Positions 3,007 through 18,802 of a stretch of DNA of 34,498 bases are shown here, in pieces. Each line of letters begins with the position of its first letter. Position 1 is the first letter of the stretch. The stretch spans positions 1 through 34,498 of the forward strand of contig JALHMV010000008.1 of assembly GCA_022843855.1 (NCBI GenBank), read 5' to 3'. Source of the stretch: Patescibacteria group bacterium. Its GTDB lineage: Bacteria; Patescibacteriota; UBA1384; 2-12-FULL-50-11. A model generated the notes under the pieces. That model was not told where the DNA came from. It saw nothing but the letters and a program-made list of their open reading frames with translations, and did not search any database. Made by a program: the position numbers and the translations under genes.

Positions 3007-6000
3007 CTATTCCGATTCGAACCCGTGGTTTGAAAATTTAAGGGTTCGACTATTTTCAGTTACAGTCCTGACAAGGCTCTCTGGAGCCCCGGACGGGATT
3101 TCAGCTTCTATTTCCAGCGTAACCTTGACGGTCGCATTTACGATCCCCGACAGATGCGCGACGACTTCGTCCGCGATCTGGCTGGCGTCGCGTCCGACTC
3201 GCGTCGGATCAAGGGAAACGGTTCCAAAAAACCGTTTTGGCAAAGTTGCCCCCGGAGCGGAAGATGTTCCGGCCCCCGCAGGATCGGGCGGAAGCGGCGG
3301 GGCGTCGTTTCCATTATCTTGCTGACCAGCCGAATTATGAATTCCAATCAGGGATTTTTCTGATTCGATCTGAGCAATAGCTGCATCTGGATGAACCAAG
3401 TGTCCTGGACCATCAGCATCGACGAGATGGATGTTGGCTCCATGCTGCATTCCTCGAAACCGGCTATTCTGCTCATCGTGGCCCTCAGCAAAAGCGAACG
3501 TTTCGACTCCCCAACTCAACAAACTTACCCCGTGTTTTACCGCCCCTAGCAGTACTGCTGGCTCGCTCAGACGTGGCAAATACAGGTATCGAGCAAAGTC
3601 CTCAACAAGCTGCCGGATCTCCACGCTCTGCCCTCTCCACAGCGGTATCCTGTCTAGTTCCATTCGCAGGCGGGTTCCTCCGAAGCTCGTCAAAAGCATC
3701 TCCTCGCTTTTCAGCTTCTTGCTCGCTCGAACGGCGAGGGCGTCGGTACCAGTCAGTCGAAGAGCCTTCCATTCGACCGCATCGGTCGGTTTTATTTGTG
3801 AAGGAGCTAACAGCCACTGGTAAGTTTCAGGTATGCGGGCATTCACAGTTGCGTCAGCCGACCGCATCTGATTCTCCGCTTGGGTGACCTGATGCGGATC
3901 AAGGTTAAGATCAGTCTTTTCCCGCAGGATCGACTCCCAGGCTAAATATGAGCGAATCGCCTCGTCGAGGTCCTGTAGACGTGTACGATCAGGAGCTAAA
4001 AACACCAGTGTGTTTCGATAAAGCCTGGGCGAATTGCCCCGCGATTCTAGTATCAGCCGAGCTGCTGACTCGGCCGGACTGTTCGAATCCTTCGAATAGT
4101 AGTGCTCAAGCCCAAGAACAACCAACCGAGCATCGAGATCATCTGGAACGTCATTGCTAGAGGCGGGCAGAGCATGGATACGCCGAAACTCGCCGCGTTC
4201 AGCCATGTTTGCCCGAATGCGCTTGTCGATCTCCATCGACGTCTTATCGGGATTATGTTTGAGCTGTTCGCGACGGTCTTCGGCCAACTTGGTCACCGTT
4301 GGTTGGGTCGAATACCAATATCGGTTACCGTCCTGATAGAGATAAGTCGCGGCACCTGCCAGCCTGCGCAGAGCGTCACCAAACAGATTTGGCGATTCAC
4401 CTGGCAACACGCACCCGAGTTTTATTCGTCGATCTTCAATTCCGCGGTGCGCCGCCGAAGACGTTGGCGCCGAACCGAGGTAAACCGTGCGGGCGACTCT
4501 ACGACACGCCTGTATCTTCCCTAGATTCGTGATTTCTCCATCGATTTTCATTGGCAGCGAGTTTGGTCCGTCAACATCTTTATCTATGATCGGAACCCAC
4601 TCATCGGAAAGATATCGGGTAAGTTCAAACTGAACCCGTCGGTCGTCGATGGGGATCAGCGATGGCAAAATAATTGGGTTCTTGTCGCCCTTTTCCCAAA
4701 GCGTATGTATGACTGCGGCCATCAGACGTAGCACGCCACGAGTTCGCTGGAATTTAACCAGCGTTGACCAGTCGGTGTACAGTCGGTCAAATATCTCCGG
4801 GTGGATCGGATATGCGGCCTTTATTCGCTTTTCATAATCCGACTCGCGGCACTCTGGCGGAAATTCCTGATGCTGCTGCCGATAGAGTTCCGCCAGCGCT
4901 CGAGCAGTCACGTCACGATGCTTATATTGATCGGCAGACATCGGCTCGAATAATCGGCGCCTAACTATCTCGAAGCCTTCCTCAGCACTGGCTGGCCGCC
5001 ATGATGATTCTACGCGGCCTACAACGTTACGCAGCCGATCAAGGGCTTCGCGTCCGCGTACTCCGCCAACCTCCACATCGTCCGCCCGAGTATGCGGCGA
5101 ACCAGAAGTGTCCGACGCAGGAAGTGAGATGACGATCAAGCAATTCCCGGCCAATTTCGCAGATTCGGTGAGCGCTTGAGCGAAGGTAAATTGTGTCTCA
5201 AAACCACCCGCCGGCAGATCGCTCTGATCGTGAAGCTGTCGCGCATACGCAACCCATTCATCGATGAGGATCAGGCAAGGGCCATATTCAACGAAAAGCT
5301 CGCGGAGTTTATCTCCCGGGTTGGTCGAATTTCGGTCATCTTCCGCTACCTTAGCGAACGCTTCTTTACCGCCGAGCTGGTACGCAAGTTCACCCCAGAG
5401 AGTCCGAACCTCCGTTCCGTCTGCCTTTACAGCGACACTTCCCGGCGGGATCTTGTTTCCCACGAGGACGACCCGATTAGCCTTCGGCACCTTATCCACC
5501 GACGCTTTTTTGATGATCTCGTCCACGCCCGCGAGTTCGCTTGCAGTCGCCCCAGAGAACAAATGAAAGAGTGCGAGCATCGAGTGCGTCTTGCCGCCGC
5601 CAAAGTTCGTCTGAAGCTGTACAACGGGATCGCCGCCTTTTCCTGAAAGCCGCTCGACCGCTCCTTCGAGGAGTCGTCCGAGGCTTTCAGTCAGAAAGGT
5701 CCGCTTAAAAAATTCAACTGGATTGCGATACTCGTCAGAGCCTTCTCCGAGGTGAACCTGCCAGAGGTCGGCCGCAAATTCCGCCTGCTGATAGTTTCCG
5801 CTCGCCACATCTCTGTGGGGCGTTGCGATCTCAGTCCAGGGCTTTAGTGTGCTCGCGGCGGCTGCCTCGATAAGCGAACCGCCAGCCTTGCGTTTCTCAC
5901 CCCGAACCTGCTCCTCCATGATCAGGCGCCGGAGTTCCATTTTGATCTTACGAACCTCGTCGGCCTCGGGTGCTGAGACGGCCGCGAGTAACCGCTCCGT

Positions 6001-6345
6001 AGAGTCGAGAGCACGATCCGCGTCGTCGCCCGAAAAAGCCTCTTGATGTGCCCATTTGTTCCGGTGGTTACGCAGCTCTGAGACTAGTCCCCGTTCCGCG
6101 TAGCCGAGAGTTGCGGCGAAGATATGGTTCCACGTATCCCACATCATCTTCAGCAAGGCCGCAACATCCCATTCGGACGGAGGTTTGTTCCCGATCTTCG
6201 GATCTGCCATAAACGGAGCGAGGATATCCGCCGTCACGCGGCCTCGCTCGATCGCAGACTGGACCTCACGGTCTACAAACGGCCCAAGTCCTGACTTGAG
6301 CAGCTCCATCGCCTTTCCAACACGTTCGTAATTTGAAATTGCCAT
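3007..6345 (-). CDS. HEPN (Swt1-type)-DUF499 ATPase, defence-associated
   Basis: The product is 1112 aa. Residues 1-120 resemble the Swt1-type HEPN domain and contain RNKWAH (95-100), which fits the RX4H motif of HEPN ribonucleases. From about 155 the DUF499 ATPase region follows, with Walker A NFGGGKTH (247-254) and Walker B CLILIDEW (357-364). The C-terminal 70 residues, after a Pro/Ala-rich linker near 1040, may bind DNA or a partner. DUF499 ATPases are typically found with DUF1156 methylases in defence islands, and that partner lies two genes upstream in transcription order. In this role it would be an ATP-driven sensor or mover, with the HEPN domain a candidate RNA-cutting effector; both are inference. 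It starts with ATG, 17 bp after the small 104-aa gene, in the same operon. Confidence 0.88.
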   Translation of the reverse strand: MAISNYERVGKAMELLKSGLGPFVDREVQSAIERGRVTADILAPFMADPKIGNKPPSEWDVAALLKMMWDTWNHIFAATLGYAERGLVSELRNHRNKWAHQEAFSGDDADRALDSTERLLAAVSAPEADEVRKIKMELRRLIMEEQVRGEKRKAGGSLIEAAAASTLKPWTEIATPHRDVASGNYQQAEFAADLWQVHLGEGSDEYRNPVEFFKRTFLTESLGRLLEGAVERLSGKGGDPVVQLQTNFGGGKTHSMLALFHLFSGATASELAGVDEIIKKASVDKVPKANRVVLVGNKIPPGSVAVKADGTEVRTLWGELAYQLGGKEAFAKVAEDDRNSTNPGDKLRELFVEYGPCLILIDEWVAYARQLHDQSDLPAGGFETQFTFAQALTESAKLAGNCLIVISLPASDTSGSPHTRADDVEVGGVRGREALDRLRNVVGRVESSWRPASAEEGFEIVRRRLFEPMSADQYKHRDVTARALAELYRQQHQEFPPECRESDYEKRIKAAYPIHPEIFDRLYTDWSTLVKFQRTRGVLRLMAAVIHTLWEKGDKNPIILPSLIPIDDRRVQFELTRYLSDEWVPIIDKDVDGPNSLPMKIDGEITNLGKIQACRRVARTVYLGSAPTSSAAHRGIEDRRIKLGCVLPGESPNLFGDALRRLAGAATYLYQDGNRYWYSTQPTVTKLAEDRREQLKHNPDKTSMEIDKRIRANMAERGEFRRIHALPASSNDVPDDLDARLVVLGLEHYYSKDSNSPAESAARLILESRGNSPRLYRNTLVFLAPDRTRLQDLDEAIRSYLAWESILREKTDLNLDPHQVTQAENQMRSADATVNARIPETYQWLLAPSQIKPTDAVEWKALRLTGTDALAVRASKKLKSEEMLLTSFGGTRLRMELDRIPLWRGQSVEIRQLVEDFARYLYLPRLSEPAVLLGAVKHGVSLLSWGVETFAFAEGHDEQNSRFRGMQHGANIHLVDADGPGHLVHPDAAIAQIESEKSLIGIHNSAGQQDNGNDAPPLPPDPAGAGTSSAPGATLPKRFFGTVSLDPTRVGRDASQIADEVVAHLSGIVNATVKVTLEIEAEIPSGAPESLVRTVTENSRTLKFSNHGFESE

Positions 6346-6362: not shown

Positions 6363-6677
6363 TTAGCCTCGTTGTGGGTAGATGTGATAGCGAAATTCAC
6401 CCATCTTTTCGATAACGACTTTATCGCCCGCTTTCAGGTCGTGGCGCTTGAAGAATTTTCCAACCCACGCTCGCTTGCGAAACATCTTCTTGTCCCCCGC
6501 AATATCGGTTTCTACGGGTTCGTCAAATCCGATATGAAGTTCCAGAACACTGGGAGCGGCCGCCGTTTTTGAAGTACCGCCGATCGCGGATGAAGGAAAG
6601 ATCTCCATCACTGAAGCAAGATTGAGGGAATCATTCCGAATGTTCCCGTCTGTGACCTCGATAATTCCGACGTTCAT
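6363..6677 (-). CDS. Small basic protein, possible DNA-binding pseudobarrel (B3-like)
   Basis: The product is 104 aa, ATG start. No family is certain. The C-terminal half reads RAWVGKFFKRHDLKAGDKVVI followed by RYHIYP, a pattern of alternating strands with a GD turn that resembles the B3/EcoRII-N type DNA-binding pseudobarrel sometimes fused to or encoded beside restriction and methylation enzymes. The N-terminal half (NVGIIEVTDGNIRNDSLNL) is acidic and strand-rich. It lies 17 bp upstream of the DUF499 gene and 48 bp downstream of the 299-aa gene, inside the operon, so a role as specificity or adaptor subunit is plausible but inferred. Confidence 0.7.
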   Translation of the reverse strand: MNVGIIEVTDGNIRNDSLNLASVMEIFPSSAIGGTSKTAAAPSVLELHIGFDEPVETDIAGDKKMFRKRAWVGKFFKRHDLKAGDKVVIEKMGEFRYHIYPQRG

Positions 6678-6725: not shown

Positions 6726-7625
6726 TCACCGCCCTAATAATTCGTCTATTTCAGCATAACGAGCCGCTGAGATCGACATAAGATATTCCTGCTCGTCGGT
6801 CTCATCTTCGATCTCGAGAATTTCAGCCATTCCACCGAGCTTTGATATTTTGTCGAGTAATCCGATATGAAGGATCTCGGTAGCCGGAACATACTCAAGA
6901 AACTCCTCGGAAGTGATTCGGGTCTTGTACTTTGCATCCTCATCGCCCTCTATCTCCTCAGCATCGACCGATAACGAGAGAAAATAGCGTCCATCCACGG
7001 ATTCCAACACCCAAAGCCGGACTATGTCCTTATCGACATCATTAAGCGAGTGCTCAAAACACACCTCTATCCTATTGTCTAGATTTGTGATCTCGCTGTT
7101 GTCTGGCCGCCTTAGGAGGATCAGGTCAATCATAGGCAATTCGGATTCAGTAGATTTATATATCGGCTCCTCCTGAGAATTATACTCAGCAAATTCAACT
7201 GCTTCGGCTTCACTAAGCTCGTAGCCAAAATATGCGATCCGCGGCACGGTCGTTTCTATTATTTGTCCCATTTCCCTTTCGAGGTTCCAGGAGTGCTGCC
7301 TCCATACGCCATCCTCAGACAGAGCGAAGCCCGTCATTATGATATAGCCGTGCATCTTAAAATTCGCCGCCGAGTTCGCGTGGCACTGGCCGTGATGCCG
7401 AGCATCGACGAGCCGCGAATCCTCGCCGCTCAAATATATCCCGCGTATCAAGATCTTCTCCCGATCCAGAACGGATCCCAGTACCACGACGGCCTCGCCT
7501 CCATGACGCAGGATATGTTGCTTCAGCTCCTCAGTTTCTGTGTCCATATGTGTCGAGTCGGCAGTAAATCCACGCTTAGCGAGAGAAGCCCTCCGAATTG
7601 GGTCCATTGGTTCTTGTGTAGTCAT
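6726..7625 (-). CDS. Uncharacterised protein with putative Cys-His active site
   Basis: The product is 299 aa and I do not recognise a named family. Residues about 70-140 contain a striking block: HGQCHANSAANF (Cys81, Asn84), then DGVWRQHSWNL (His111) and QIIETTVPRIAYFG (Glu124). A Cys near a helix start, a His before a Trp and a following acidic residue are how papain- or transglutaminase-fold enzymes place their catalytic residues, so a hydrolase or transferase is possible. Residues about 165-299 are acidic and look like a separate helical and strand-rich domain. Its ATG lies 7 bp after the methylase stop with no Shine-Dalgarno sequence, so it is probably translationally coupled to the DUF1156 methylase. 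It sits between that gene and the DUF499 gene. Function unknown; the Cys-His idea is inference from motif spacing. Confidence 0.75.
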   Translation of the reverse strand: MTTQEPMDPIRRASLAKRGFTADSTHMDTETEELKQHILRHGGEAVVVLGSVLDREKILIRGIYLSGEDSRLVDARHHGQCHANSAANFKMHGYIIMTGFALSEDGVWRQHSWNLEREMGQIIETTVPRIAYFGYELSEAEAVEFAEYNSQEEPIYKSTESELPMIDLILLRRPDNSEITNLDNRIEVCFEHSLNDVDKDIVRLWVLESVDGRYFLSLSVDAEEIEGDEDAKYKTRITSEEFLEYVPATEILHIGLLDKISKLGGMAEILEIEDETDEQEYLMSISAARYAEIDELLGR

Positions 7626-7632
7626 ATGTTAT

Positions 7633-10600
7633 TTAATCGAACATTTCTCCCTGCGTGGCTGTTGGTGCCGACGCTTGTTCTTGCGACAACCGCATGATCT
7701 CGGGCCAGGATTGGACAAGGCCGTTGTAGCTGAGCGCTTCGGCGGCGCGTTTTTTGCGTTCGCAGAGGGTGTAGAGGCGGTAGCAGAGTTCGCGGGCGGT
7801 TTCTGCTCTGGCTCCTAGTTGGGCAGCGATACGGGCGGCGGCCGATTCGCCGTCTTTTTCGAGGACGCGAACGAGTTGATGCACCATATCCCAGACGGTT
7901 AGGCGGCCGTCGCTTTCCGGCGTCCAGTTTTCCTGAAGCTCGTCGGGCCGGAACAGACGGACCTTGCCGGCCTTTGCTTCAAGGATCGGGCTTGTACGCG
8001 GATCGGCCATCTCGGCGATCGATGTGTTCTTGGCTTTTGAGAGCGTTTCGGCACGGCCGTATTCGCCCGCCTCGAAGCCAAATTCCTCGAACCACGCAAG
8101 TGCCCAGCGGGTGTCGGCGTCGAAATCGCCTTCCTGCTCGGCCAGCACCTCGTCGAGCGTCTGGTTAATCAGCGCCAGAGCATCACGGACCGAGAGCGGC
8201 TTGCCCTCGGCATCCAGAATCTTTTCATACCTTGTGTAAACCGCCATTCCCGGCCCGATCGCCGCCTGTGCAAGATCGACCGGTGCGATGTTGCCGCGCT
8301 GGAGATGTCGAAGAGCGTCGGGAAGTTCGGATTTGAGCGCGTTGACGAATTCACGACGTGTCACTGTGGTAGCGTCCACAATTCGTTTTCGGCACACCAA
8401 CACAATACTTGAGGCAAGCACATTTACGCCCGTCTTTACGCCAGTCGGTCTTTCGGTTCGTACCGGCCAAGTTCCCGATACTGCGAATTCAGCACGAATT
8501 ACCGCATCCAAAAAAGTCTCCCATCCAGTACTTGCGGTACCGCCGCCAGTCTCCGTTTCGGCCTGCTTAAACGCATAATAAATTGTCACAGGAAAAGCAG
8601 GATGGGCCGCCGAGGACAGACGGTTCATTGCCATAGTCATTCCTTCGAGAAAGAACTGTTCCGCTTTCGCCTTGCTGGCATGTCGAAAAGGGGTCGCAAT
8701 GAGTTCCTCGACTTTGGGAACCGTCAGCGTCGAAAAGAGGTCCGCAAATACGGGCTTCAGCGACCGACGCAACCAGATATAAAAGAAGTCCGAAAGGTCA
8801 GCGTAACCAATATTGTCATAATAAGGCGGATCGGTGGAAACAACCTTCCCGTCCGATAGGTTTTGAGATTGAGCATCTAATCGATGTGTATGGCCGGTAG
8901 CTTTCCCAAAGTGATCTCCAAAGTTCTGTATCGTCTTAACGATGAAATCCAAACACTTGTGCCAACTGGCCGCCTCGCAGAAGGGATTAACCTCGCCAAA
9001 ATCCCACGTCATTGAAAGTGTTTGACGCGAAAACATGTTTACAACAAGTTCATGTGCTGGATTGCTGCTCCAGACCGATAGCGTTGAAAACTGCATCATC
9101 AATCGATCTAGATTGAATGCTAGATAAACAGCAATTGCATTCGCATAGGTCAAACTGGGTCTCGCTGCGTCATGTTCGGCATGCTCCCGCTCCCCTCGGT
9201 CAACCACTTTCTTTCGATCATTAGCGATTCTTTCACGCACCTCGGAGATTAAATCAGAGAAGGTCGAGAGAGCCAGTAACTGACGAGGCGTAAATAAATC
9301 GCGCCATCGCTTCATCCCATATTCCTGAACCCGGAAACCGAGGGCCTTTTCAGGAAGGTCTGTGTCAGGCACATTTTGAGGAACCGCTACCCGCGCAAGT
9401 GCTTCAATGTCAGACGTTGGGGAGATGTAAACACGCCCACTTTCTCCTTCAAGAGCAACCGCCATTAGGCGAGCCCCCATTTGACCTTGCTTTCCTTGAG
9501 ATCTTAGATACTCGAATGGCATAGGCGTGCGGGAAACAAGGCAGAAGAAACTTGTGCCACTACTACCGTTCTTTGTCCCATATTTAGCCAACTCAGATTT
9601 CTCGGCTCCTCCGACTTTGACCTCGAAGCGGTAATCTTTTCCATCAACGACCGGTTGCACGAAAGTCTCTTTCCCTACCTTCTTGGAAAGCATGAACGAT
9701 GACGCCAATGGCACATCTATATCGCGAAACGCTGGGTTCGGACTCTTCACCGTCCGTGCCCAGATCCACGCAATGACGGTTAGCTTTTTTCCGATGTATT
9801 TTTTGAGGTCCGGGCGATCCTTTGCTACTTCCTCGGTGATCTCGACCTTTGGGTAAAGATGGCCGATACGTTTTTCGGCTTCGTCGCGCATCCATCTGCC
9901 GTAGTAGCGGACGTCTTCGGCAAGACCCTCGGCTCCTTTCCAAACCTTCAGAGCCTTTTCCGTGTCGCTCCTCGATTGCCATTCAGGGTTGACCGGCGGC
10001 ATCCCGGCAAATTTCGGCGGTATCTCGATCATCGCCTTGTTGATCAGCACCGCTACCGGGTTGAGGTCCGAAGCATAAGCCTCAAGCCCCAGCCGCTGCG
10101 CCTCAAGCGGCAAAGCGCCGCCGCCCGCAAACGGATCGTGAAACGCTGGCAGCTTGTTCCGGTCAAAAAGCTCCTTCGCCCGCGGATGATCGGCATTATC
10201 CGCACAAGTTCGTCGCCAACTCTGCCAGATCTCCGCCCGGGCCTTATCAAGCACCGTCTCGTTCGTCGTGTTTTCCCAAAGAACAAGCTCCTCGATGATC
10301 TTGAACAGCCGGTCGCGTTCCTGCTCCGCGATAATGTCGTCCAGAGTCGGCTCCGGCCCCGGATCGGGCGAATCAATACCGGCCTCATCTGCCTTTCTCT
10401 TTACTTCGGTTGCGGTAACCCAAACCGGATGCCGATCCTTGAGCACTTTCTCCGCTTTTTTGCGCAGCTTGTCGTCCATCTTCAGCGTATCGACATACTC
10501 CGAAGGATCATCCACCATTTGCGAAAAAATAACCGCCCTCGCTGCCGCCAAAGGCCGCCTAGCCCACCACAAATGCAGTGTGCTCGGATGCCCGTGTCGT

Positions 10601-10680
10601 ATAGACTTCTCCCTTGCCGACGCCTTATTTATCGCCTCAAGCGGCAAAGCTACTTCGATCAGTTTCTTTCTTAACTTCAT
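7633..10680 (-). CDS. DUF1156-family DNA methyltransferase
   Basis: The product is 1015 aa. The N-terminus ([19 protein letters not shown], then [19 protein letters not shown]) is the DUF1156 signature. SAM-binding motif I is DPFAGGG (182-188) and the amino-methylase catalytic motif is DPPYYDN (617-623), so N6-adenine or N4-cytosine methylation is expected. The role in defence would be marking self DNA for the operon's ATPase and nuclease partners. Base composition is uneven: the two ends (about 9850-10680 and 7640-8330) are visibly GC-richer than the centre (about 8340-9800), which hints at exchange of an internal segment. The first 147 bp and the first 63 bp recur upstream as decayed copies at 11447-11593 and 12073-12135. 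The gene is followed closely by the 299-aa gene. Confidence 0.92.
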   Translation of the reverse strand: MKLRKKLIEVALPLEAINKASAREKSIRHGHPSTLHLWWARRPLAAARAVIFSQMVDDPSEYVDTLKMDDKLRKKAEKVLKDRHPVWVTATEVKRKADEAGIDSPDPGPEPTLDDIIAEQERDRLFKIIEELVLWENTTNETVLDKARAEIWQSWRRTCADNADHPRAKELFDRNKLPAFHDPFAGGGALPLEAQRLGLEAYASDLNPVAVLINKAMIEIPPKFAGMPPVNPEWQSRSDTEKALKVWKGAEGLAEDVRYYGRWMRDEAEKRIGHLYPKVEITEEVAKDRPDLKKYIGKKLTVIAWIWARTVKSPNPAFRDIDVPLASSFMLSKKVGKETFVQPVVDGKDYRFEVKVGGAEKSELAKYGTKNGSSGTSFFCLVSRTPMPFEYLRSQGKQGQMGARLMAVALEGESGRVYISPTSDIEALARVAVPQNVPDTDLPEKALGFRVQEYGMKRWRDLFTPRQLLALSTFSDLISEVRERIANDRKKVVDRGEREHAEHDAARPSLTYANAIAVYLAFNLDRLMMQFSTLSVWSSNPAHELVVNMFSRQTLSMTWDFGEVNPFCEAASWHKCLDFIVKTIQNFGDHFGKATGHTHRLDAQSQNLSDGKVVSTDPPYYDNIGYADLSDFFYIWLRRSLKPVFADLFSTLTVPKVEELIATPFRHASKAKAEQFFLEGMTMAMNRLSSAAHPAFPVTIYYAFKQAETETGGGTASTGWETFLDAVIRAEFAVSGTWPVRTERPTGVKTGVNVLASSIVLVCRKRIVDATTVTRREFVNALKSELPDALRHLQRGNIAPVDLAQAAIGPGMAVYTRYEKILDAEGKPLSVRDALALINQTLDEVLAEQEGDFDADTRWALAWFEEFGFEAGEYGRAETLSKAKNTSIAEMADPRTSPILEAKAGKVRLFRPDELQENWTPESDGRLTVWDMVHQLVRVLEKDGESAAARIAAQLGARAETARELCYRLYTLCERKKRAAEALSYNGLVQSWPEIMRLSQEQASAPTATQGEMFD

Positions 10681-10708: not shown

Positions 10709-11329
10709 TTATCCGTTGACCCGAGAGTCAGATCCGGGGCGTGGTCTCCCCCTCCGTTTTTGGGAGATGAACCATCGAAGAGCAGAGACTAGCGTCGACG
10801 TCCGATAAGTGAGGTCGTCCATTTCGCAAACCCATTCACCTGATCTTTGAAAGATGCCCCACTTCCGACCATCCGAGAAGACGCCGTGAAGTTCCATGCA
10901 GTCACCAAGAAAATTCCCCAGTGACTTAAAAGTTGTTCCGAGGCCCAAATACGACAAGTATTTTTTCATGCCATTGTCGTCAGATTCGGGCTTCCAGTCG
11001 GCTGGGGTATGCTGCCAGGCGACGACTCCGTGAATCTCGATTACTCCGCCGCTAACAAACCAGACCCATTTGTCTTCCTCCGTCCTGTAGTACGCAAGTC
11101 GTGTTTTCGCGGCATCGTCTTCGTTTTTAGTTGCAATCAGGTACAGACCGTCGACGCTTGGTTTCTCCGGAAGTGCTATCCATCGATGTGCCGTTTCGAA
11201 GCCCTGCATAAACGCGCGTGACCATGTCTTACGGAGTGTCGGGCTATCACGGTGTCCTTTCTCCTCAACGAAGAAAGTGTAGAATCGGGGAAGATCCGTC
11301 GCCAACCGTTTTGCAATATCTTTATTCAT
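10709..11329 (-). CDS. Accessory protein, possibly DUF551-like
   Basis: The product is 206 aa, ATG start, without a clear Shine-Dalgarno sequence. Residues about 55-115 contain the pattern KPSVDGLYLIAT ... WVWFVSGGVIEIHGVVAWQ, in which a 'D-G-x-Y' strand is followed by a Trp-rich strand; this resembles DUF551-type proteins common in phages and islands, but the match is weak. The C-terminus is basic (QKRRGRPRPGSD). It lies between a decayed DUF1156 start (11423-11593) and the intact methylase, 28 bp before the methylase ATG, so it looks like a cassette inserted at the methylase start. Function unknown. Confidence 0.65.
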   Translation of the reverse strand: MNKDIAKRLATDLPRFYTFFVEEKGHRDSPTLRKTWSRAFMQGFETAHRWIALPEKPSVDGLYLIATKNEDDAAKTRLAYYRTEEDKWVWFVSGGVIEIHGVVAWQHTPADWKPESDDNGMKKYLSYLGLGTTFKSLGNFLGDCMELHGVFSDGRKWGIFQRSGEWVCEMDDLTYRTSTLVSALRWFISQKRRGRPRPGSDSRVNG

Positions 11330-11422
11330 ACTTTTACCAATCGTGCACGAATCGCTGCGTCACCCTTCAGCACGGCTGTTTTGCGGAGCTGATCAATTCA
11401 ACTAAACTACATTTCACGCTGG

Positions 11423-11593
11423 TTACTCCAAAATCTTCCTTCTGCCCGCCCTAGCCGCCGCCAACGGCCGCCTAGCCCACCACAAATGCAGCGTACTGGG
11501 ATGCCCATGCCGAATCGACTTCTCCCTCGCCGACACCTTGTTTATCGCCTTGAGCGGTAACGCTACTTCGATAAGTCTTTTTCTGAGTTCCAT
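11423..11593 (-). pseudogene. Truncated copy of the DUF1156 gene 5' end (56 codons)
   Basis: A short reading frame begins [20 protein letters not shown] and continues through the DUF1156 signature to [10 protein letters not shown], then leaves the homology and stops after 56 codons. Bases 11447-11593 align without gaps to the first 147 bp of the intact methylase gene (10534-10680), about 80% identical by eye. The protein similarity is higher than the DNA similarity, so the parent copy was once under selection. A functional 56-aa product is unlikely. It sits between the 128-aa and 206-aa genes. Confidence 0.85.
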
Positions 11594-11666
11594 TATTCCA
11601 CGATCAAATCGGGACGCCCTTTACCGTGAGAGTCTCGCAATCAATGCCAGCTACCGAGAAGACGAT

Positions 11667-12053
11667 CTAACTAACCCACCCTAGCTCTTCGAGCGCTACC
11701 GCAACCTCCGGGCGCATGAACATCGCCATCGGGGCATACCAGATGCAAATGCCGATCAGCCATAGCTCGCCATCGTAGTTGCGAGGCTTGCCGTATCCCA
11801 TCTCCGTCAGCAGGAGCTTCGCCACTTCGCCATACTGCCGGTTAACTGTTCGCCAGCTCTCTATCCCGCATAGACGAGCAAGTTCCTGCACCGTGGCAAC
11901 ATGGCCCGGCGACCCGTAGTGGGCCCGCAGAAGCGAAAGCTGCATATCCGACAGGCGTGGCCTGATAGCTTCGAATCCTTTCTTATACTCCTGCGGGGAT
12001 GGCGAGACCGGAAATGCCCGCATGGATCTGGATGGCTCATTTATTTTTTTCAT
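11667..12053 (-). CDS. Small winged-helix-like accessory protein of restriction islands
   Basis: The product is 128 aa; the ATG at 12053 is used, with an alternative at 12023 and no strong ribosome binding site at either. The core (RPRLSDMQLSLLRAHYGSPG, then ATVQELARLCG) and the ending MRPEVAVALEELGWV match my memory of a small uncharacterised family often encoded beside, or fused to, HNH and restriction proteins; the LLRAHY to LARLCG part reads like a helix-turn-helix. It lies between two decayed DUF1156 starts inside the operon. Its role is unknown; DNA binding is inferred. Confidence 0.65.
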   Translation of the reverse strand: MKKINEPSRSMRAFPVSPSPQEYKKGFEAIRPRLSDMQLSLLRAHYGSPGHVATVQELARLCGIESWRTVNRQYGEVAKLLLTEMGYGKPRNYDGELWLIGICIWYAPMAMFMRPEVAVALEELGWVS

Positions 12054-12072
12054 ATTTTGTATTTGGTCTGTC

Positions 12073-12135
12073 CAATCGATTCTTTACCGCCTCCAACGGC
12101 AGCCCTACATCGATAAATTTCTTTCTTAGTTACAT
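12073..12135 (-). pseudogene. Older decayed copy of the DUF1156 gene start (about 21 codons)
   Basis: Read from the ATG at 12135 the sequence gives M-stop-LRKKFIDVGLPLEAVKNRL, which matches [20 protein letters not shown] of the intact methylase, with the second codon mutated to TAA. By my count 45 of 63 bases match the first 63 bp of the methylase gene without gaps. It is shorter and more diverged than the copy at 11423-11593, so it is probably the older remnant. It lies 10 bp downstream of the ArdC/ImmA-like gene. Confidence 0.75.
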
Positions 12136-12144
12136 CGCGCCTTA

Positions 12145-13128
12145 CTATTGAGCCTTCTTCTTCGGTCTCAGCGGCAGATAATCCTTCCCCATCTTCTCGA
12201 TAAGAGTTACGGCACGCAGGATCGTATCAACACTTATCTCAGGCACTTCGCCTTTGGCAGCCTGCAGATACCCCGATAAATACTCGTCGGATGTCGTCTC
12301 GATGCCGAGACGACCGCAAACCAAATAGGAAACAGATTCTGCCTCGAACTCTTCAGCTACTCGTGATCGACCGGACCGGTTCGGCCACCATTTGGGGTCG
12401 GGCGTACCCAAGTGACCGCAATACAAATGACCGAGTTCGTGGACAAGCGTTGCGTATCGAGCTTCTTTAGATAAATGCGTGCTCAGGAGCATTTCATAAC
12501 GCTTTGGCACCGTCTCGTAGGTCAGATCCGGCCTTTTGGATTTAACGGCGTTGAGAGTACCCGGATTTGGTGCCCGCCTAATCGACCCGGCGAGCTGTGA
12601 CCCAGCCTGATGATCCGAAATGCTGATACCATCTCGCTTCGCGTTCGCGATCGTAAGATCGAGTTCGTTCCCGATTGTTCCTCTTCGTATATCGAACGGA
12701 TTGACGACTTCGGGCGGCAGCGGTCGAGCCCAGGGCCCCGGCTCCACATCGGTAACGTCGAACACAAACATAACCGGCCCCATCGGCCGCAGTATCGTTA
12801 TGGGCGTTGCCGAAACCTTTACATTATAACCATACCGCTCAGACCATCGTTTAGGGGTTGCAACATACTTCGCACCCGGTCTCTGAGTATGAATAAGCAT
12901 GGCGTTGAACGGTGAATAGAATCTGAACCCCTTGACGAAGTTCAATAATTTCATGTATTCATTACCCGAGCGGTACTTACCGGCGATTGCAAAGAGTTCG
13001 TCGAGGCCATCCTTGATGTCTGCACGAGTTGGGTCTATGCCGTCCTTCTGCACGCCCTCCTCGCTGTCGAGAGGCTCATCAGGTTCGTCGAATAAAGTAA
13101 GCTGCCGATGGCACGGGCGATCTAACAT
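12145..13128 (-). CDS. ArdC/ImmA-like metallopeptidase (possible antirestriction protein)
   Basis: The product is 327 aa from the ATG at 13128, chosen because GAGG lies at good spacing; the track's TTG at 13140 overlaps the previous stop codon. Residues about 45-130 (YSPFNAMLIHTQRPG, VATPKRWSERYG, ILRPMGPVMFVFDVTDVEP) match the ArdC N-terminal ssDNA-binding-type region. A zinc peptidase part follows with HELGH (about 222-226) and a downstream EFEAES helix that would give the third ligand, as in ImmA/IrrE and SprT-like families. ArdC proteins protect incoming DNA from restriction; ImmA/IrrE peptidases cleave repressors. Either role would suit a mobile island that carries its own restriction genes. 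It starts 8 bp after the DUF262 stop codon, with its ribosome binding site overlapping that stop. Confidence 0.8.
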   Translation of the reverse strand: MLDRPCHRQLTLFDEPDEPLDSEEGVQKDGIDPTRADIKDGLDELFAIAGKYRSGNEYMKLLNFVKGFRFYSPFNAMLIHTQRPGAKYVATPKRWSERYGYNVKVSATPITILRPMGPVMFVFDVTDVEPGPWARPLPPEVVNPFDIRRGTIGNELDLTIANAKRDGISISDHQAGSQLAGSIRRAPNPGTLNAVKSKRPDLTYETVPKRYEMLLSTHLSKEARYATLVHELGHLYCGHLGTPDPKWWPNRSGRSRVAEEFEAESVSYLVCGRLGIETTSDEYLSGYLQAAKGEVPEISVDTILRAVTLIEKMGKDYLPLRPKKKAQ

Positions 13129-13136
13129 TCTTATCC

Positions 13137-14846
13137 TCAATACGCGATATTCGGGGATTCGAGGTCGGTCGCCCCAGTAATACCCGTTACCCGCTTTATT
13201 TCATTCCAGAGCCGCTCCTGTCGCCAAACCAGAAAGCCCTGATAATCGTCAGTCCAAAATGGAGAAATATCGCCTGTCGGCAAGCAGTGCGATTCCAAGA
13301 TCGCGTCGAACGGAAATCCAGTCGTTTCCTTGATTGTCCGAAGATAATCGGACGGAGCCCGATTACTGATCTTCTTATTCGTGGTTCCATCGATTAATGT
13401 GCGATTTACAATGCAGTCGCGTTCCCTAGAACTGTCGATATTCTTGACCTTCTGAAGGAAGTCAGCAGGAAAGATATGGTGATCGTCGATCGACTCCTCT
13501 TTCATAAGTTTTCCGGTGATCACCGCCTGCGTATGAAAATCGCGGGCAGGAGATCCAGAACTGAGGATAAGGCAGATGGTTCCTCTATAGATCGCCCTCT
13601 GGCGAGGCGTCACATCCCGCAACGAGTTTGGATCGAAGCGGAGCGTACTGACGGACTCGGGCTCAGTCTCGGCAGCAAACCATCGGAGCAATTCCGTTAA
13701 GTCTTTTGCTCCCTGACTGTTTGGGGCATTCTCATAAGACTGGCCGAAAACCGAACACCAGAACCATCGTTTAATTTTCTCCCGGTTTGCCCCCGACTTT
13801 GCGGTGTTGTCGGGGCCTGACTTCGCGAGTACAGCAGTGATCGGCACCATCATCGTTGCATAAGGCATCCATTTAGGGAGGACTACCCCGCAATCGTCTC
13901 GAAGTATGGTAAGGCCGTCGGCAGCAGCTCGAACAACTTTGGGCCACCACTCGTTGAAGTCTGCAGCAGTTAAGTTGAGTACGTCGCTCTTTTTACACGA
14001 AGGTGCGGGACGACTGAGCAAGGCGATCGCCTGCAATAGGTAATACGGATCAACATCGAACTCAGCAATGATCGGATGCTCCTCTCTCGAAATGTCCCAA
14101 ATCTCGCGCAGGCGAATCCCGTCCTTCCAGAAGCGAGCGGTTAGTAACTCAAACACCGTAAGTTTAACGCCTGTTCGGTTCAAGGTTTCAAAAATCGTAC
14201 AAAGAGCATCTGCCGTGGTCGAATCGGCGAGAGTTACAACCGGAAAATGGTAGTCGTCGATGGTTTTGATCCAAGCATCATTCAAATCTTTGAGATTTTT
14301 CATCAAACTGGCCCGCTCATCCGAGGGCAGCGGATGCGTCACCTCAAACAGCCATTCGAGAAAACCGCCGGCCCCACCTTTAAGGACGCTTAGCGGTAGG
14401 ATCATTTCTCGGGCCTGGGTCTCGAAGTCTTCCAACTCGCGCACCCTACGGGTCGTTCTCCGAAGGTGGAAAATCGCCTCTTCAAAGTCGAAACCATCGA
14501 GTAACTTTCGGATATTCAGATAGTACCGGTGGTCACCTTCCCCATAAAACGCCTGGTAAAGTGAGGTAAGTCTCTGCTGACCATCAAGTACCAAAAATGT
14601 ATGGATTCGTCCATCGGATTTTGGTGCCCCTTCAAACTCGCGGGAAGCAAACACACGTTCTTTATCGCGAACCCGCAACAGGCTTCCCGCCGGATGGTTG
14701 TTGGCAATCGATACAATAAGCTCTTGTGTAGCACTCGGATCCCAAACAAAATCTCGTTGAAAATCCGGCAAAACCATATTCCGAGAATGAACGTCTGCGA
14801 GAAGTTCCTTGAGTGCCTTGGGGTTTGTATCTTCAAAAATACTCAT
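13137..14846 (-). CDS. DUF262/DUF1524 protein, GmrSD-like type IV restriction nuclease
   Basis: The product is 569 aa. The N-terminal DUF262 domain (ParB/Srx-fold NTPase-nuclease) shows VLPDFQRDFVWDP (25-37) and the DGQQR motif (88-92). The C-terminus carries the DUF1524 HNH-type nuclease motif DDHHIFP (454-460), followed by RDCIVNRTLID and KKISNRAPSDYL. This is the single-chain arrangement of GmrSD-type enzymes, which cut modified phage DNA. The ATG overlaps the helicase stop codon (ATGA), so the two are co-translated and probably act together. Whether it targets modified DNA, or instead serves as nuclease for the methylase-based system here, cannot be told from sequence. Confidence 0.88.
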   Translation of the reverse strand: MSIFEDTNPKALKELLADVHSRNMVLPDFQRDFVWDPSATQELIVSIANNHPAGSLLRVRDKERVFASREFEGAPKSDGRIHTFLVLDGQQRLTSLYQAFYGEGDHRYYLNIRKLLDGFDFEEAIFHLRRTTRRVRELEDFETQAREMILPLSVLKGGAGGFLEWLFEVTHPLPSDERASLMKNLKDLNDAWIKTIDDYHFPVVTLADSTTADALCTIFETLNRTGVKLTVFELLTARFWKDGIRLREIWDISREEHPIIAEFDVDPYYLLQAIALLSRPAPSCKKSDVLNLTAADFNEWWPKVVRAAADGLTILRDDCGVVLPKWMPYATMMVPITAVLAKSGPDNTAKSGANREKIKRWFWCSVFGQSYENAPNSQGAKDLTELLRWFAAETEPESVSTLRFDPNSLRDVTPRQRAIYRGTICLILSSGSPARDFHTQAVITGKLMKEESIDDHHIFPADFLQKVKNIDSSRERDCIVNRTLIDGTTNKKISNRAPSDYLRTIKETTGFPFDAILESHCLPTGDISPFWTDDYQGFLVWRQERLWNEIKRVTGITGATDLESPNIAY

Positions 14847-17800
14847 GATGGTTCTCCTGCCTGTGCCAGCATCTCAGCAAAGCTGTAATTAATGCTCGTT
14901 ACGCCAAAGTCCGGTTCACGCTTGAATGGCTCGCGAACATAATGAACTTTATGGGTCTCGTCATCAAAAAATTCAACGATCGCGAGAATGAAGTCCTCCG
15001 GCTTGTTTAACGAGTATAGAATCTCATTCTTTGTAACTGTGATCGTCTCCGCCCCACTGACTCTTCCTTTCACCTCGACGAACCGCAGTTTGCCGGTACC
15101 AGGAACCCGGCTTTCAATGTCATAACCAAGTTTCTCGAATTCACGGTCGGTAGGTTCAAATCCAAGGTTCCTTTCGATCCCCATCACAATTTCCCGCGCC
15201 TTTGCAGCAGAGATTTGCGTGTTGATGGAATTGCCGTTTGGTCTTTCGGGATCTCCAGTCATTTTCGCGATCATTCCAGCGGGCACAACCAACATTCCGC
15301 CTAAAATCACAGGAGGCAGCGGCGAGATCTGACGTTCGAGTGCAAGGTCGGATAGTCTCTTTTGCAGGCGAGCTTGCAGGATATCGGCCCTCTTACGGGC
15401 TTCGTCAGAGTTGAGTTTCGCATTGACCTTACCTGATTGCTCTTGCAGTTTTAGCTGTTCGGCTCGGTGATCCCAGTGATTGATCTCCTTGGTCAAACGA
15501 TCCTTCACGGCTGCCTCGGTCTTGTCTATCAGGACGATCTTGGGGTCGCGTACCTCGGCAAGGTGCTCTGGCACAACCGTCTCGATCGCGTGGCCTTGTG
15601 CCTTCATTTCCAGATCGCGTGAGACCCAGCCGCATTCTGGCCGGTCGAGTATCTGGTCGATCCCCGGCTCGCCGTCCGCAAGGGGTCGGTAGTCAAGATA
15701 TGGCGCGTAGTGCAGATGTCTCGCCTGTCCATCAGAATCAATCTCCACGTACAGGATTTGTTTTGAAATTACCCGTCGATCACCATTTCTGGTTCTCGAT
15801 GCGTCTTGTATGGCATGTTCCAGGAAGAACACTACCCGAGGCTGGACACCTGTATCACGCTCATCCACCAGCACCACTCCGCGGCGCAACAGGTCGCGGT
15901 CTCGTTCGAGAATTAGATCGATCGTTGCTTCGAGCAGAGGATGGCCCGGACACACAAACGCGGCGAGCGGTTGGCCCTGTGGAGCGATAAGAGCTTTATC
16001 AAACGCGACACGTTCATAACGAGGCTGAACCGGTTCACCGATCCCGATAAGACGATCTCGGTTGCGAATCACGGCCGGAACATTCGTGATCTCGTATCGC
16101 CTCGGTTCACGCTGCTTAATGGCTCCGCCAAGACGTTGGAAAGCCTCTATGAAAAACGATTCAATGTAGTGGGGCTGCAGTCGGCGAGCATCGGCCCGCT
16201 CCATATCCTCACGGATCCGGTTCACTCGTCGCGTATCCATTGAATCGCGAACCAGGGCTCGCTCATCAAAAAGGTCGCGGATTTCATCTGGATCAAAAGC
16301 TGACTCGACCGCCTGGGTCAAGCGAGCCCGAATCTCCGGTCGCTCACCGTATCGGATCGCTTCGATCAGAAGTTGCCGCAATGCGTGTCCCTGAAACTGA
16401 AGTTTCCCGAGCACATCAAAGACCTGACCGCCGAGTGCCTTCCGAGCCTCCTCGAGTTTTTCGAGCAGTCGTCGGTATACATCACCCTCCCTGGTCTCAT
16501 CCGCGACCAAGTTCCATAGATGGCAAACTTCCGTCTGTCCTATTCGATGAATTCGGCCAAACCTTTGTTCGAGCCGGTTCGGATTCCAAGGTAGGTCATA
16601 ATTGACCATCAGATGGGCTCGTTGTAGATTGATGCCTTCACCCGCAGCATCCGTCGCGAGTAGAACCTGAACCTCGGGATCGTGCCGGAAAGCCTCCTGG
16701 GCGTTTAATCTTTCTTGCCTGCCGATCCCGCCGTGGATCACAACAACAGACCTATCTCGACCGAGCAGGGTCTTGATACGAGTTTCAAGGTAGTTTAGCG
16801 TGTCGCGGTGTTCGGTAAATATAACGAGCTTCTGTTGGGACGAACGAACGAATTCTGGAGAGTTTGAATCACTCTTTTCAGCCTTCCCGGCTGAGAATAT
16901 CTCATTCAGTAGCGAGGCAAGTTCTACCCATTTCTTATCTTCGCCGCTATGTCGTACAGCGAAAGCAAGCGATTCGAGTTGTTTTAGGGTTGCTATCTCT
17001 GCCTTTAGTTCATCGATCGTTCCCGCCGCGGTCGCTTGGTCAAGTATCTGCTCTTCAGCAAGCTCCGCTTCCTGATCAGGAGCATCATCGAAGTCCTCCA
17101 GATCCTCAACATCAAACAGTTCTTCAAATTTTGGTATTAGGATGCCAACGCTACCACCCCGAGCCAGGATTTCCATCTCGCGGAGTCTGCTCTCCAATCG
17201 CTCTCGACGGCGACGGAGTGACTGGTAGATTGCCTCGGGCGACGAAGCAAGCCTGCGCTGCAGGATCGTCAAAGCAAATCCTACCGTACCGGCCCGTTTA
17301 TCATTCTGAAGGGCCTCAGCCCGATTGAATTCTTCACGCACATAATCGGTTACAGACTTATAGAGAGCAGCCTCCGCTCCAGATAGTCGATATGGAACCG
17401 TATAGGCTATTCGTTCAGGGAAAAGAGGTGTCGCGTCGAACTTAAGGAGACTCTCTTTTACCATCCGTCGCATCATGTCCGATACATCGGCTACGTGAAC
17501 GCCATCCCGGAATTTCCCCTCAAAGCGATCACCGTCAAGCAAAGCCATGAAGAGTTGGAAATCCTCTTCTTTCCCGTTGTGCGGGGTGGCCGTCATCAGG
17601 AGAAAATTTCGTGTGATGGTCGAGAGCAACTGAGCCAATCGATACCGCTTGGTATACTTGACCTCGCCGCCAAAGAACGTTGCCGACATCTTATGGGCTT
17701 CGTCGCAGATGATAAGATCCCAACCAGCATCAGGAGCCTTGAGTTTCTCCTGAACATCCTCGTTTCTGGACAACTTATCCAGTCTCGCTATGCAGAGCTT

Positions 17801-18397
17801 GGTCTCCTGGAACCAGTTACCTGTCCGAGCCGCTTCAAGTTTGTCATTAGTCAATATTTCAAACGGAAGATTAAATCTTCGCGAAAGTTCGTCCTGCCAC
17901 TGTTCCGCGAGCCCGCCTGGACAGACGACCAAACACCTCTCAAGATCCCCGCGTGCTATCAACTCCTTGATCAATAGTCCCGCCATGATCGTTTTCCCAG
18001 CACCCGGGTCATCTGCAAGCAGGAACCTTAACGGCTGCCTCGGTAGCATCGATTCGTATACCGCCGTAATCTGGTGAGGGAGCGGCTCAACTACTGAAGT
18101 GTGGACCGCAAGAAGTGGGTCAAAGAGGTGAGCGAGATGGATACGCTGGGCTTCAGACACCAAGCGAAATTTACCGCCGTCGCCGTCAAAACTCCACGGA
18201 CGACCTTTCTCAACGATCTCAAGGCGATCTTCGTCAGCACGATAAAGAAGTTCGTTGGCGACTTTGCCGGTGGCCGATTTGTAGGTCATCTCAACGGCAT
18301 CTGAACCAAACCATTGAACGCTGACAACCGTTACGATGCTGTCTGGGAGCACCCCCCGTAAAATCGCATTGGGCTGCAGATCTTCGAGTTTAATCAT
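14843..18397 (-). CDS. SNF2-type helicase with C-terminal DUF3883
   Basis: The product is 1184 aa from the ATG at 18397 (MIKLEDLQPN); the track's longer start adds 25 residues unlike the family. Residues about 100-420 hold the first RecA-like lobe, with ADDPGAGKT (128-136), DEAH (232-235) and LMTATPHNG. The second lobe has a VVIHGG strand, LLATDAAGEGINLQ and motif VI QRFGRIHRIGQ. A long helical region follows, ending in a DUF3883 domain (about 1070-1170; LRFVEVKGR), a restriction-endonuclease-like fold often attached to defence helicases. Similar proteins act as the DNA translocase of multi-gene defence systems such as DISARM (DrmD). It is the first gene of the operon and overlaps the DUF262 gene by 4 bp. 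Confidence 0.92.
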   Translation of the reverse strand: MIKLEDLQPNAILRGVLPDSIVTVVSVQWFGSDAVEMTYKSATGKVANELLYRADEDRLEIVEKGRPWSFDGDGGKFRLVSEAQRIHLAHLFDPLLAVHTSVVEPLPHQITAVYESMLPRQPLRFLLADDPGAGKTIMAGLLIKELIARGDLERCLVVCPGGLAEQWQDELSRRFNLPFEILTNDKLEAARTGNWFQETKLCIARLDKLSRNEDVQEKLKAPDAGWDLIICDEAHKMSATFFGGEVKYTKRYRLAQLLSTITRNFLLMTATPHNGKEEDFQLFMALLDGDRFEGKFRDGVHVADVSDMMRRMVKESLLKFDATPLFPERIAYTVPYRLSGAEAALYKSVTDYVREEFNRAEALQNDKRAGTVGFALTILQRRLASSPEAIYQSLRRRRERLESRLREMEILARGGSVGILIPKFEELFDVEDLEDFDDAPDQEAELAEEQILDQATAAGTIDELKAEIATLKQLESLAFAVRHSGEDKKWVELASLLNEIFSAGKAEKSDSNSPEFVRSSQQKLVIFTEHRDTLNYLETRIKTLLGRDRSVVVIHGGIGRQERLNAQEAFRHDPEVQVLLATDAAGEGINLQRAHLMVNYDLPWNPNRLEQRFGRIHRIGQTEVCHLWNLVADETREGDVYRRLLEKLEEARKALGGQVFDVLGKLQFQGHALRQLLIEAIRYGERPEIRARLTQAVESAFDPDEIRDLFDERALVRDSMDTRRVNRIREDMERADARRLQPHYIESFFIEAFQRLGGAIKQREPRRYEITNVPAVIRNRDRLIGIGEPVQPRYERVAFDKALIAPQGQPLAAFVCPGHPLLEATIDLILERDRDLLRRGVVLVDERDTGVQPRVVFFLEHAIQDASRTRNGDRRVISKQILYVEIDSDGQARHLHYAPYLDYRPLADGEPGIDQILDRPECGWVSRDLEMKAQGHAIETVVPEHLAEVRDPKIVLIDKTEAAVKDRLTKEINHWDHRAEQLKLQEQSGKVNAKLNSDEARKRADILQARLQKRLSDLALERQISPLPPVILGGMLVVPAGMIAKMTGDPERPNGNSINTQISAAKAREIVMGIERNLGFEPTDREFEKLGYDIESRVPGTGKLRFVEVKGRVSGAETITVTKNEILYSLNKPEDFILAIVEFFDDETHKVHYVREPFKREPDFGVTSINYSFAEMLAQAGEPS

Positions 18398-18802
18398 TTT
18401 GAAAGATACGAGACGACAAGGATACCACAGAAAAGTCAGCAATTTCACCGGGAGAGAAATGCAACATTTCAATACCCTCTCTGGGCATCCGGTTCCTGTT
18501 AGGCGACTTTCGATAGCTAGGCTATCATTAGATAGTTTGAATGCCTCGAATCCCTAACTATTTACTCGACACGGTAGCTTTCATTTGTACGAGCGAACAC
18601 CTTTATACGAGTGATAATGATGTACAGGAAGGCGCTCGACCCGGGCGTACCGGTCTATGGCATCGGGCGTCCTTAGTAGCATTCCAATTCTCAACAAAAT
18701 CTTGACTACACCAGCATTATCGTAAGTGAATCGACGTTAATTTGAAGACCCGTGGATTCCTTTTTCGATAGAAATTTATCGGAGTTGATATTTTTTACTA
18801 TT
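18398..18802. promoter_or_regulatory. Divergent promoter region between defence operon and DUF4011 nuclease-helicase
   Basis: About 400 bp separate two divergent large genes, so both promoters should lie here. A small inverted repeat, GATAGC-TAG-GCTATC, spans 18512-18526 and could be a regulator site. TTGACT at 18702-18707 is a possible -35 for the rightward gene, but I see no good -10 at standard spacing. No further gene is visible apart from the upstream GTG alternative (18752) for the DUF4011 gene. Confidence 0.45.

Follow-up and report, generated by a model that had tools for sequence, protein, structure and literature searches.

A putative Cys-His enzyme of a mostly phage-borne domain family, encoded as exchangeable cargo in a patescibacterial Hma operon

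The window analyzed here, a 34,498-nt stretch of contig JALHMV010000008.1 from a Patescibacteria group bacterium, contains the following genes.

14843..18472, minus strand: HmaA, a Swi2/Snf2-type helicase with a C-terminal NOV_C domain (PADLOC 1703.2 bits)
10709..14846, minus strand: the HmaA-HmaB interval, encoding a DUF262/GmrSD-N protein, an IrrE/PolyVal-type zincin, a MarR-like HTH protein and a 206-aa ORF
7633..10680, minus strand: HmaB, a DUF1156 adenine methylase (PADLOC 1441.8 bits)
6726..7625, minus strand: the cargo gene, a Cys-His enzyme candidate of 299 aa with an ATG start
6363..6677, minus strand: ORF104, the second gene of the HmaB-HmaC gap, 104 aa, with a 43% homologue in a Bradyrhizobium Hma locus
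3007..6345, minus strand: HmaC, an N-terminal Swt1-type HEPN fused to a DUF499 ATPase (PADLOC 1145.8 bits)

The NOV_C domain of the HmaA helicase lies at residues 1092-1179, and all genes of the operon are co-directional with short gaps between them. The presence of HmaA, HmaB and HmaC identifies the locus as a known Hma system, for which PMC12839542 has introduced the new name Type-1 DUF499-centred BREX-related (BR) system. The contig also encodes an integrase, a DnaB helicase and a DUF4011/AAA/MTES_1575 protein, and thus has the appearance of a mobile element carrying a defence island. The last of these, a nuclease protein of 1719 aa at 18752-23911, diverges from the Hma operon and is probably a second defence gene.

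Within the HmaA-HmaB interval, the 5' end of hmaB recurs in two truncated minus-strand copies, at 11446-11584 (139 bp, 86% identity) and 12080-12128 (49 bp, 80% identity), each directly upstream of a cargo ORF. Such copies were not found in the other Hma loci tested, and they look like scars of a stepwise uptake of cargo by recombination with other Hma loci. Elsewhere, the same interval was occupied by NYN, Fic, DUF4435 plus AAA, or DUF29 genes.

The ORF at 6726-7625 is a real gene, and nothing points to an artefact. In codon usage and GC3 it is similar to the Hma core genes, and the composition of the contig is compatible with the remainder of the assembly. Seven bases (7626-7632) separate the hmaB stop from its ATG, and the closest purine-rich stretch, GGGAGA, lies within hmaB and ends about 20 nt ahead of the ATG, which is too distant for a normal ribosome binding site. 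Its translation may therefore be coupled, or else start independently of a leader. The ORF, its 7-bp spacing and the lack of a ribosome binding site of its own thus agree with the initial annotation, which had further proposed Cys81, His111 and Glu124 as a catalytic set; the translation carries C, H, H and E at residues 81, 82, 111 and 124. The protein consists of a conserved Cys-His-Glu domain (residues 1-150) followed by an acidic extension (residues 151-299; 38 D+E versus 14 K+R) with no confident structure. No relatives of the acidic half were found, and it is missing from the homologues of the domain.

None of the Pfam, PADLOC, PHROGs and NCBIfam models matched the 299-aa protein; a weak match to Carbam_trans_N was dismissed as chance. 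In the libraries searched, the protein appears to belong to an undescribed domain family with the signature CHxN ... TGYALSxDGxWRxH[ST]W ... ETT ... Y[FYW]G, of which about 20 relatives were found, mostly phage-borne and mainly on phage contigs and Alteromonas plasmids. The plasmid proteins were detected by tblastn and were 39.6% identical across residues 36-134 (E 8e-15). A single-sequence scan of the viral library recovered no relatives. Profile and pattern scans added the Clostridia-assigned contig L007, a viral contig of 121 kb and other viral loci. We found 14 viral stretches matching a degenerate DNA pattern for A-L-x2-D-G-x-W-x2-H-[ST]-W, and 13 of these had an open frame with CHxN upstream and, downstream, acid-T-T (12 ETT, 1 DTT) and then Y[FYW]G. 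None of these three flanking elements was part of the search pattern. Their recurrence outside it, together with the tblastn E value, indicates that the motif is not a chance occurrence. One pattern match (L012) was rejected as fortuitous, its frame being interrupted by stops.

A profile scan of genome contigs returned two loci only, one of them (L008) a near-duplicate of the plasmid locus L003 of Alteromonas. L008 is a contig filed under a Planctomycetota MAG, and its close match to a plasmid of Alteromonas macleodii (L003) indicates that it is probably misbinned. In the phylum of L007, a profile search found the domain in 1 of 399 genomes, which was the seed genome itself, and a single-sequence search of the phylum of the window returned the window and a same-genus genome (L005) only. 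This L005 match (E 0.004, two internal stops) was rejected, as the open frame there encodes another protein; in a Euzebya match (L004), only the downstream half matched in the annotated ORF.

An alignment of 19 rows was used to assess the residues, and three codons of the proposed catalytic set are located as follows.

7383..7385, minus strand: Cys81 codon, invariant, first residue of helix 81-92
7293..7295, minus strand: His111 codon, invariant, in strand 107-116
7254..7256, minus strand: Glu124 codon, at the end of strand 121-124

The invariant positions were C81, H82, G99, A101, G106, W108, H111, W113, T126, Y132 and G134. Position 124 was Glu in nearly all rows, with Asp in L020 and a shift by one residue in L008. 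A loss of Cys and His from the homologues, which would have spoken against the initial annotation, was thus not seen. The rows found by pattern had been selected for G106, W108, H111, W113 and their neighbours, and the independent evidence for His111 therefore comes only from L002, L003/L008, L006 and L007; C81, H82, E124, T126, Y132 and G134 were part of no pattern.

The conserved domain was folded alone, since a Foldseek search of the PDB with the full-length model was swamped by the disordered C-terminus.

7176..7625, minus strand: conserved domain, residues 1-150, modelled with AlphaFold2 as residues 1-152

The AlphaFold2 model of residues 1-152 (pLDDT 91, pTM 0.85) was built from an alignment of the window protein and its relatives' loci, without rows from the plasmid records. 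It consists of a helix at 81-92 starting with Cys81 and strands at 95-102, 107-116 (His111) and 121-124 (Glu124 at the end), followed by a strand at 131-136 bearing the Y-[FYW]-G motif. In papain- and transglutaminase-like folds, the Cys lies at the N-terminus of a helix and the His and the acid lie on successive strands. The model supports a fit of Cys81, His111 and Glu124 to this layout, and a hairpin of strands 107-116 and 121-124 would place His111 and Glu124 on the same side. The spacings are also comparable, with 30 residues from C to H versus 26-42 in transglutaminase-core domains, and 13 from H to the acid versus about 15. The best profile alignment against 17 transglutaminase-core domains aligned the Cys residues with each other and HSW with HAW, although at a non-significant score. 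In this hhalign test, run against transglutaminase and NlpC/P60 sets, a control pair of these two families was non-significant as well, so that the test has little power.

Foldseek with the domain model alone gave no significant match in the PDB (best E 0.68). In a viral library, Foldseek matched proteins of Yasminevirus (E 1.5e-7), Vibrio phage JA-1, Pseudomonas phage PaBG and Erwinia phage S6, all of them uncharacterised. CHxN, H and D-x-T are kept, in this order, by S6 gp040 and by related proteins from about 50 phage records. Given the lack of a match in Pfam, PHROGs, NCBIfam, PADLOC or the PDB, the superfamily is unproven. The papain- or transglutaminase-like set of the initial annotation thus holds for the conserved residues and for their layout in the model, while Foldseek found no relative of such a fold in the PDB. 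The Cys-His-Glu reading of the active site is therefore supported, not proven, by sequence conservation and the predicted structure.

We then compared the locus with 14 other Hma loci (L027-L031, L034-L042). A profile search detected the Cys-His family in none of them. The HmaB-HmaC gap was empty in nine and held unrelated genes in the other five: XisH, XisI and Uma2 in Tolypothrix, a four-helix-bundle protein in Gloeocapsa and Chlorohelix, HicA/HicB and a pair of HTH proteins in Thermus thermophilus, and, in T. brockianus, small ORFs bearing HTH or sigma-70 domains. The absence of the enzyme from all 14 loci shows that the Cys-His gene is exchangeable cargo in the HmaB-HmaC gap, not an Hma component. 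ORF104, whose C-terminus is weakly AbrB-like, has its 43% homologue inside a plasmid-borne Hma locus of Bradyrhizobium barranii that lacks the Cys-His enzyme. The two genes are therefore not an obligate pair, and ORF104 is a recurrent, unnamed Hma passenger rather than a dedicated partner of the enzyme. The coupling to the DUF1156 methylase put forward earlier finds no support in this comparison, as the flanking genes are those of a known Hma system and the link to the methylase is positional only; nor do the homologues examined adjoin DUF1156 or DUF499 genes.

Among the relatives, the L022 protein combines the domain with a MuF head protein (Phage_Mu_F) in one fusion, and in L013 it lies within a 3341-aa polyvalent protein together with ART-PolyVal, NUDIX and 2'-5' RNA ligase domains. 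In a further phage protein (L026:5522-6481), the Cys-His domain is fused to endonuclease VII. The MuF and polyvalent proteins of phages have been interpreted as delivering effectors into the host cell alongside the phage DNA (PMC5512222); that paper names four peptidase superfamilies and mentions cysteine or thiol nowhere in its text. On the basis of these protein contexts and of this interpretation, we read the domain as a conflict-related enzyme. The contexts of its relatives suggest a type of phage effector acting early in infection, here situated in a defence operon.

Taken together, we give about even chances to the explanation that the gene encodes a small enzyme of a so far undescribed and mostly phage-borne family, carried as swappable cargo between hmaB and hmaC, which would use Cys81, His111 and Glu124 for acyl transfer on a protein or peptide and would serve the defence island as an accessory effector. 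In such a mechanism, Cys81 at the N-terminus of its helix would be the nucleophile, His111 would activate it and Glu124 would orient His111. The acyl-transfer chemistry could be that of a peptidase, a glutamine deamidase or a transglutaminase with a protein or peptide as substrate. If co-transcribed behind hmaB, the enzyme would be made together with the defence proteins, and it would probably act as an accessory effector of the island, not as part of the Hma machine. The analysis establishes the gene, the family with its conserved residues, a confident fold prediction with the layout described and the lack of the gene in the other Hma loci; we infer catalysis, the type of chemistry, the substrate and the effector role, and the accessory effector role is our best guess.

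Several alternatives were weighed against this explanation. The gene could have been captured from a phage and play no part in Hma defence, either as a mere passenger or in the service of the mobile element, for instance against the defences of the host. We regard this as a less likely possibility: most relatives reside on phage contigs and megaplasmids, the window bears an integrase and a DnaB helicase, and Hma loci elsewhere lack the gene, whereas the frame has stayed intact with its conserved residues, and the gene is co-directional within the operon, only 7 bp behind hmaB. It seems unlikely that the protein is the toxin half of a toxin-antitoxin-like cargo module inhibited by ORF104 (6363-6677) or by its own acidic C-terminal half. 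HicA/HicB (L035) or XisH/XisI (L029) in the same gap of other Hma loci, the position of ORF104 only 48 bp downstream of the enzyme gene, and the acidic character of a C-terminal half missing from relatives would all suit such a module; against it, the Bradyrhizobium locus carries the ORF104 homologue without the enzyme, and the phage relatives examined have no common partner.

A different doubt concerns the chemistry. Cys81, His82, His111 and Glu124 might form the site of a metal-dependent enzyme or a structural metal site instead of a thiol triad, as His82 is as invariant as Cys81, and C-H, H and D are also kept in the distant phage family of phrog_6596 type. The order helix (Cys), strand, strand (His), strand (Glu), and the likeness of H-[ST]-W ... 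E-T-T to the HAW ... D of the transglutaminase type, nevertheless make a metal site improbable in our view. The initial annotation had offered two roles, an effector or a maturation enzyme. A maturation enzyme required by the Hma methylase or ATPase would be in keeping with a gene between hmaB and hmaC and with possible translational coupling. However, it is most improbable, as none of the 14 other loci has the enzyme, including those with the closest HmaC among the loci examined (Meiothermus, 67% identical, and G019, 64%), in both of which HmaB and HmaC are adjacent. The survey thus led us to reject a core or maturation role as unlikely, and the accessory effector is the role of the two that we retain.

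The residues of this family are strictly conserved in phages, in plasmids and in one defence operon, although none of the models in Pfam, PHROGs, NCBIfam and PADLOC matches it. Should it prove to be a thiol enzyme, it would add a protein-acting effector to the early-effector repertoires of phages and to the cargo of Hma, with a concrete candidate active site. More speculatively, and with considerable doubt, the family may represent new small thiol enzymes that phages inject early, as MuF or polyvalent domains, to modify host proteins, and that defence operons have captured as protein-acting auxiliary effectors under Hma control. The comparison also identifies the intervals separating the three Hma genes as slots for cargo, and this cautions against counting every gene of such an operon as a part of the system.

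As compared with transglutaminase-core, papain-like and NlpC/P60 enzymes, the cargo protein shares the order of Cys at a helix N-terminus, His and acid on successive strands, the H-x-W motif and similar spacings. It differs in giving no significant sequence, profile or fold match to them, in the invariant His that directly follows the Cys, and in a Cys-His distance shorter than that in most of them. The phrog_6596 family, that of Erwinia phage S6 gp040, shares the order of CHxN, H and D-x-T with the family of the cargo protein, and Foldseek against BFVD related it to the cargo protein with prob 1.00 and E 0.011; the profile comparison covers the CHxN stretch only (prob 2.3), and homology is unproven. 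In comparison with Hma (Type-1 BR), HmaA, HmaB and HmaC are all present at very high PADLOC scores, with HmaC carrying the Swt1-type HEPN fusion (PMC12839542), whereas the extra Cys-His gene is not core. The auxiliary effectors catalogued in the available part of that paper are nucleases, with no cysteine enzyme among those given there. With regard to the MuF and polyvalent effectors of phages, the virion or polyvalent fusion is found in the relatives L022 and L013, whereas the window protein is encoded by a stand-alone gene within a defence operon.
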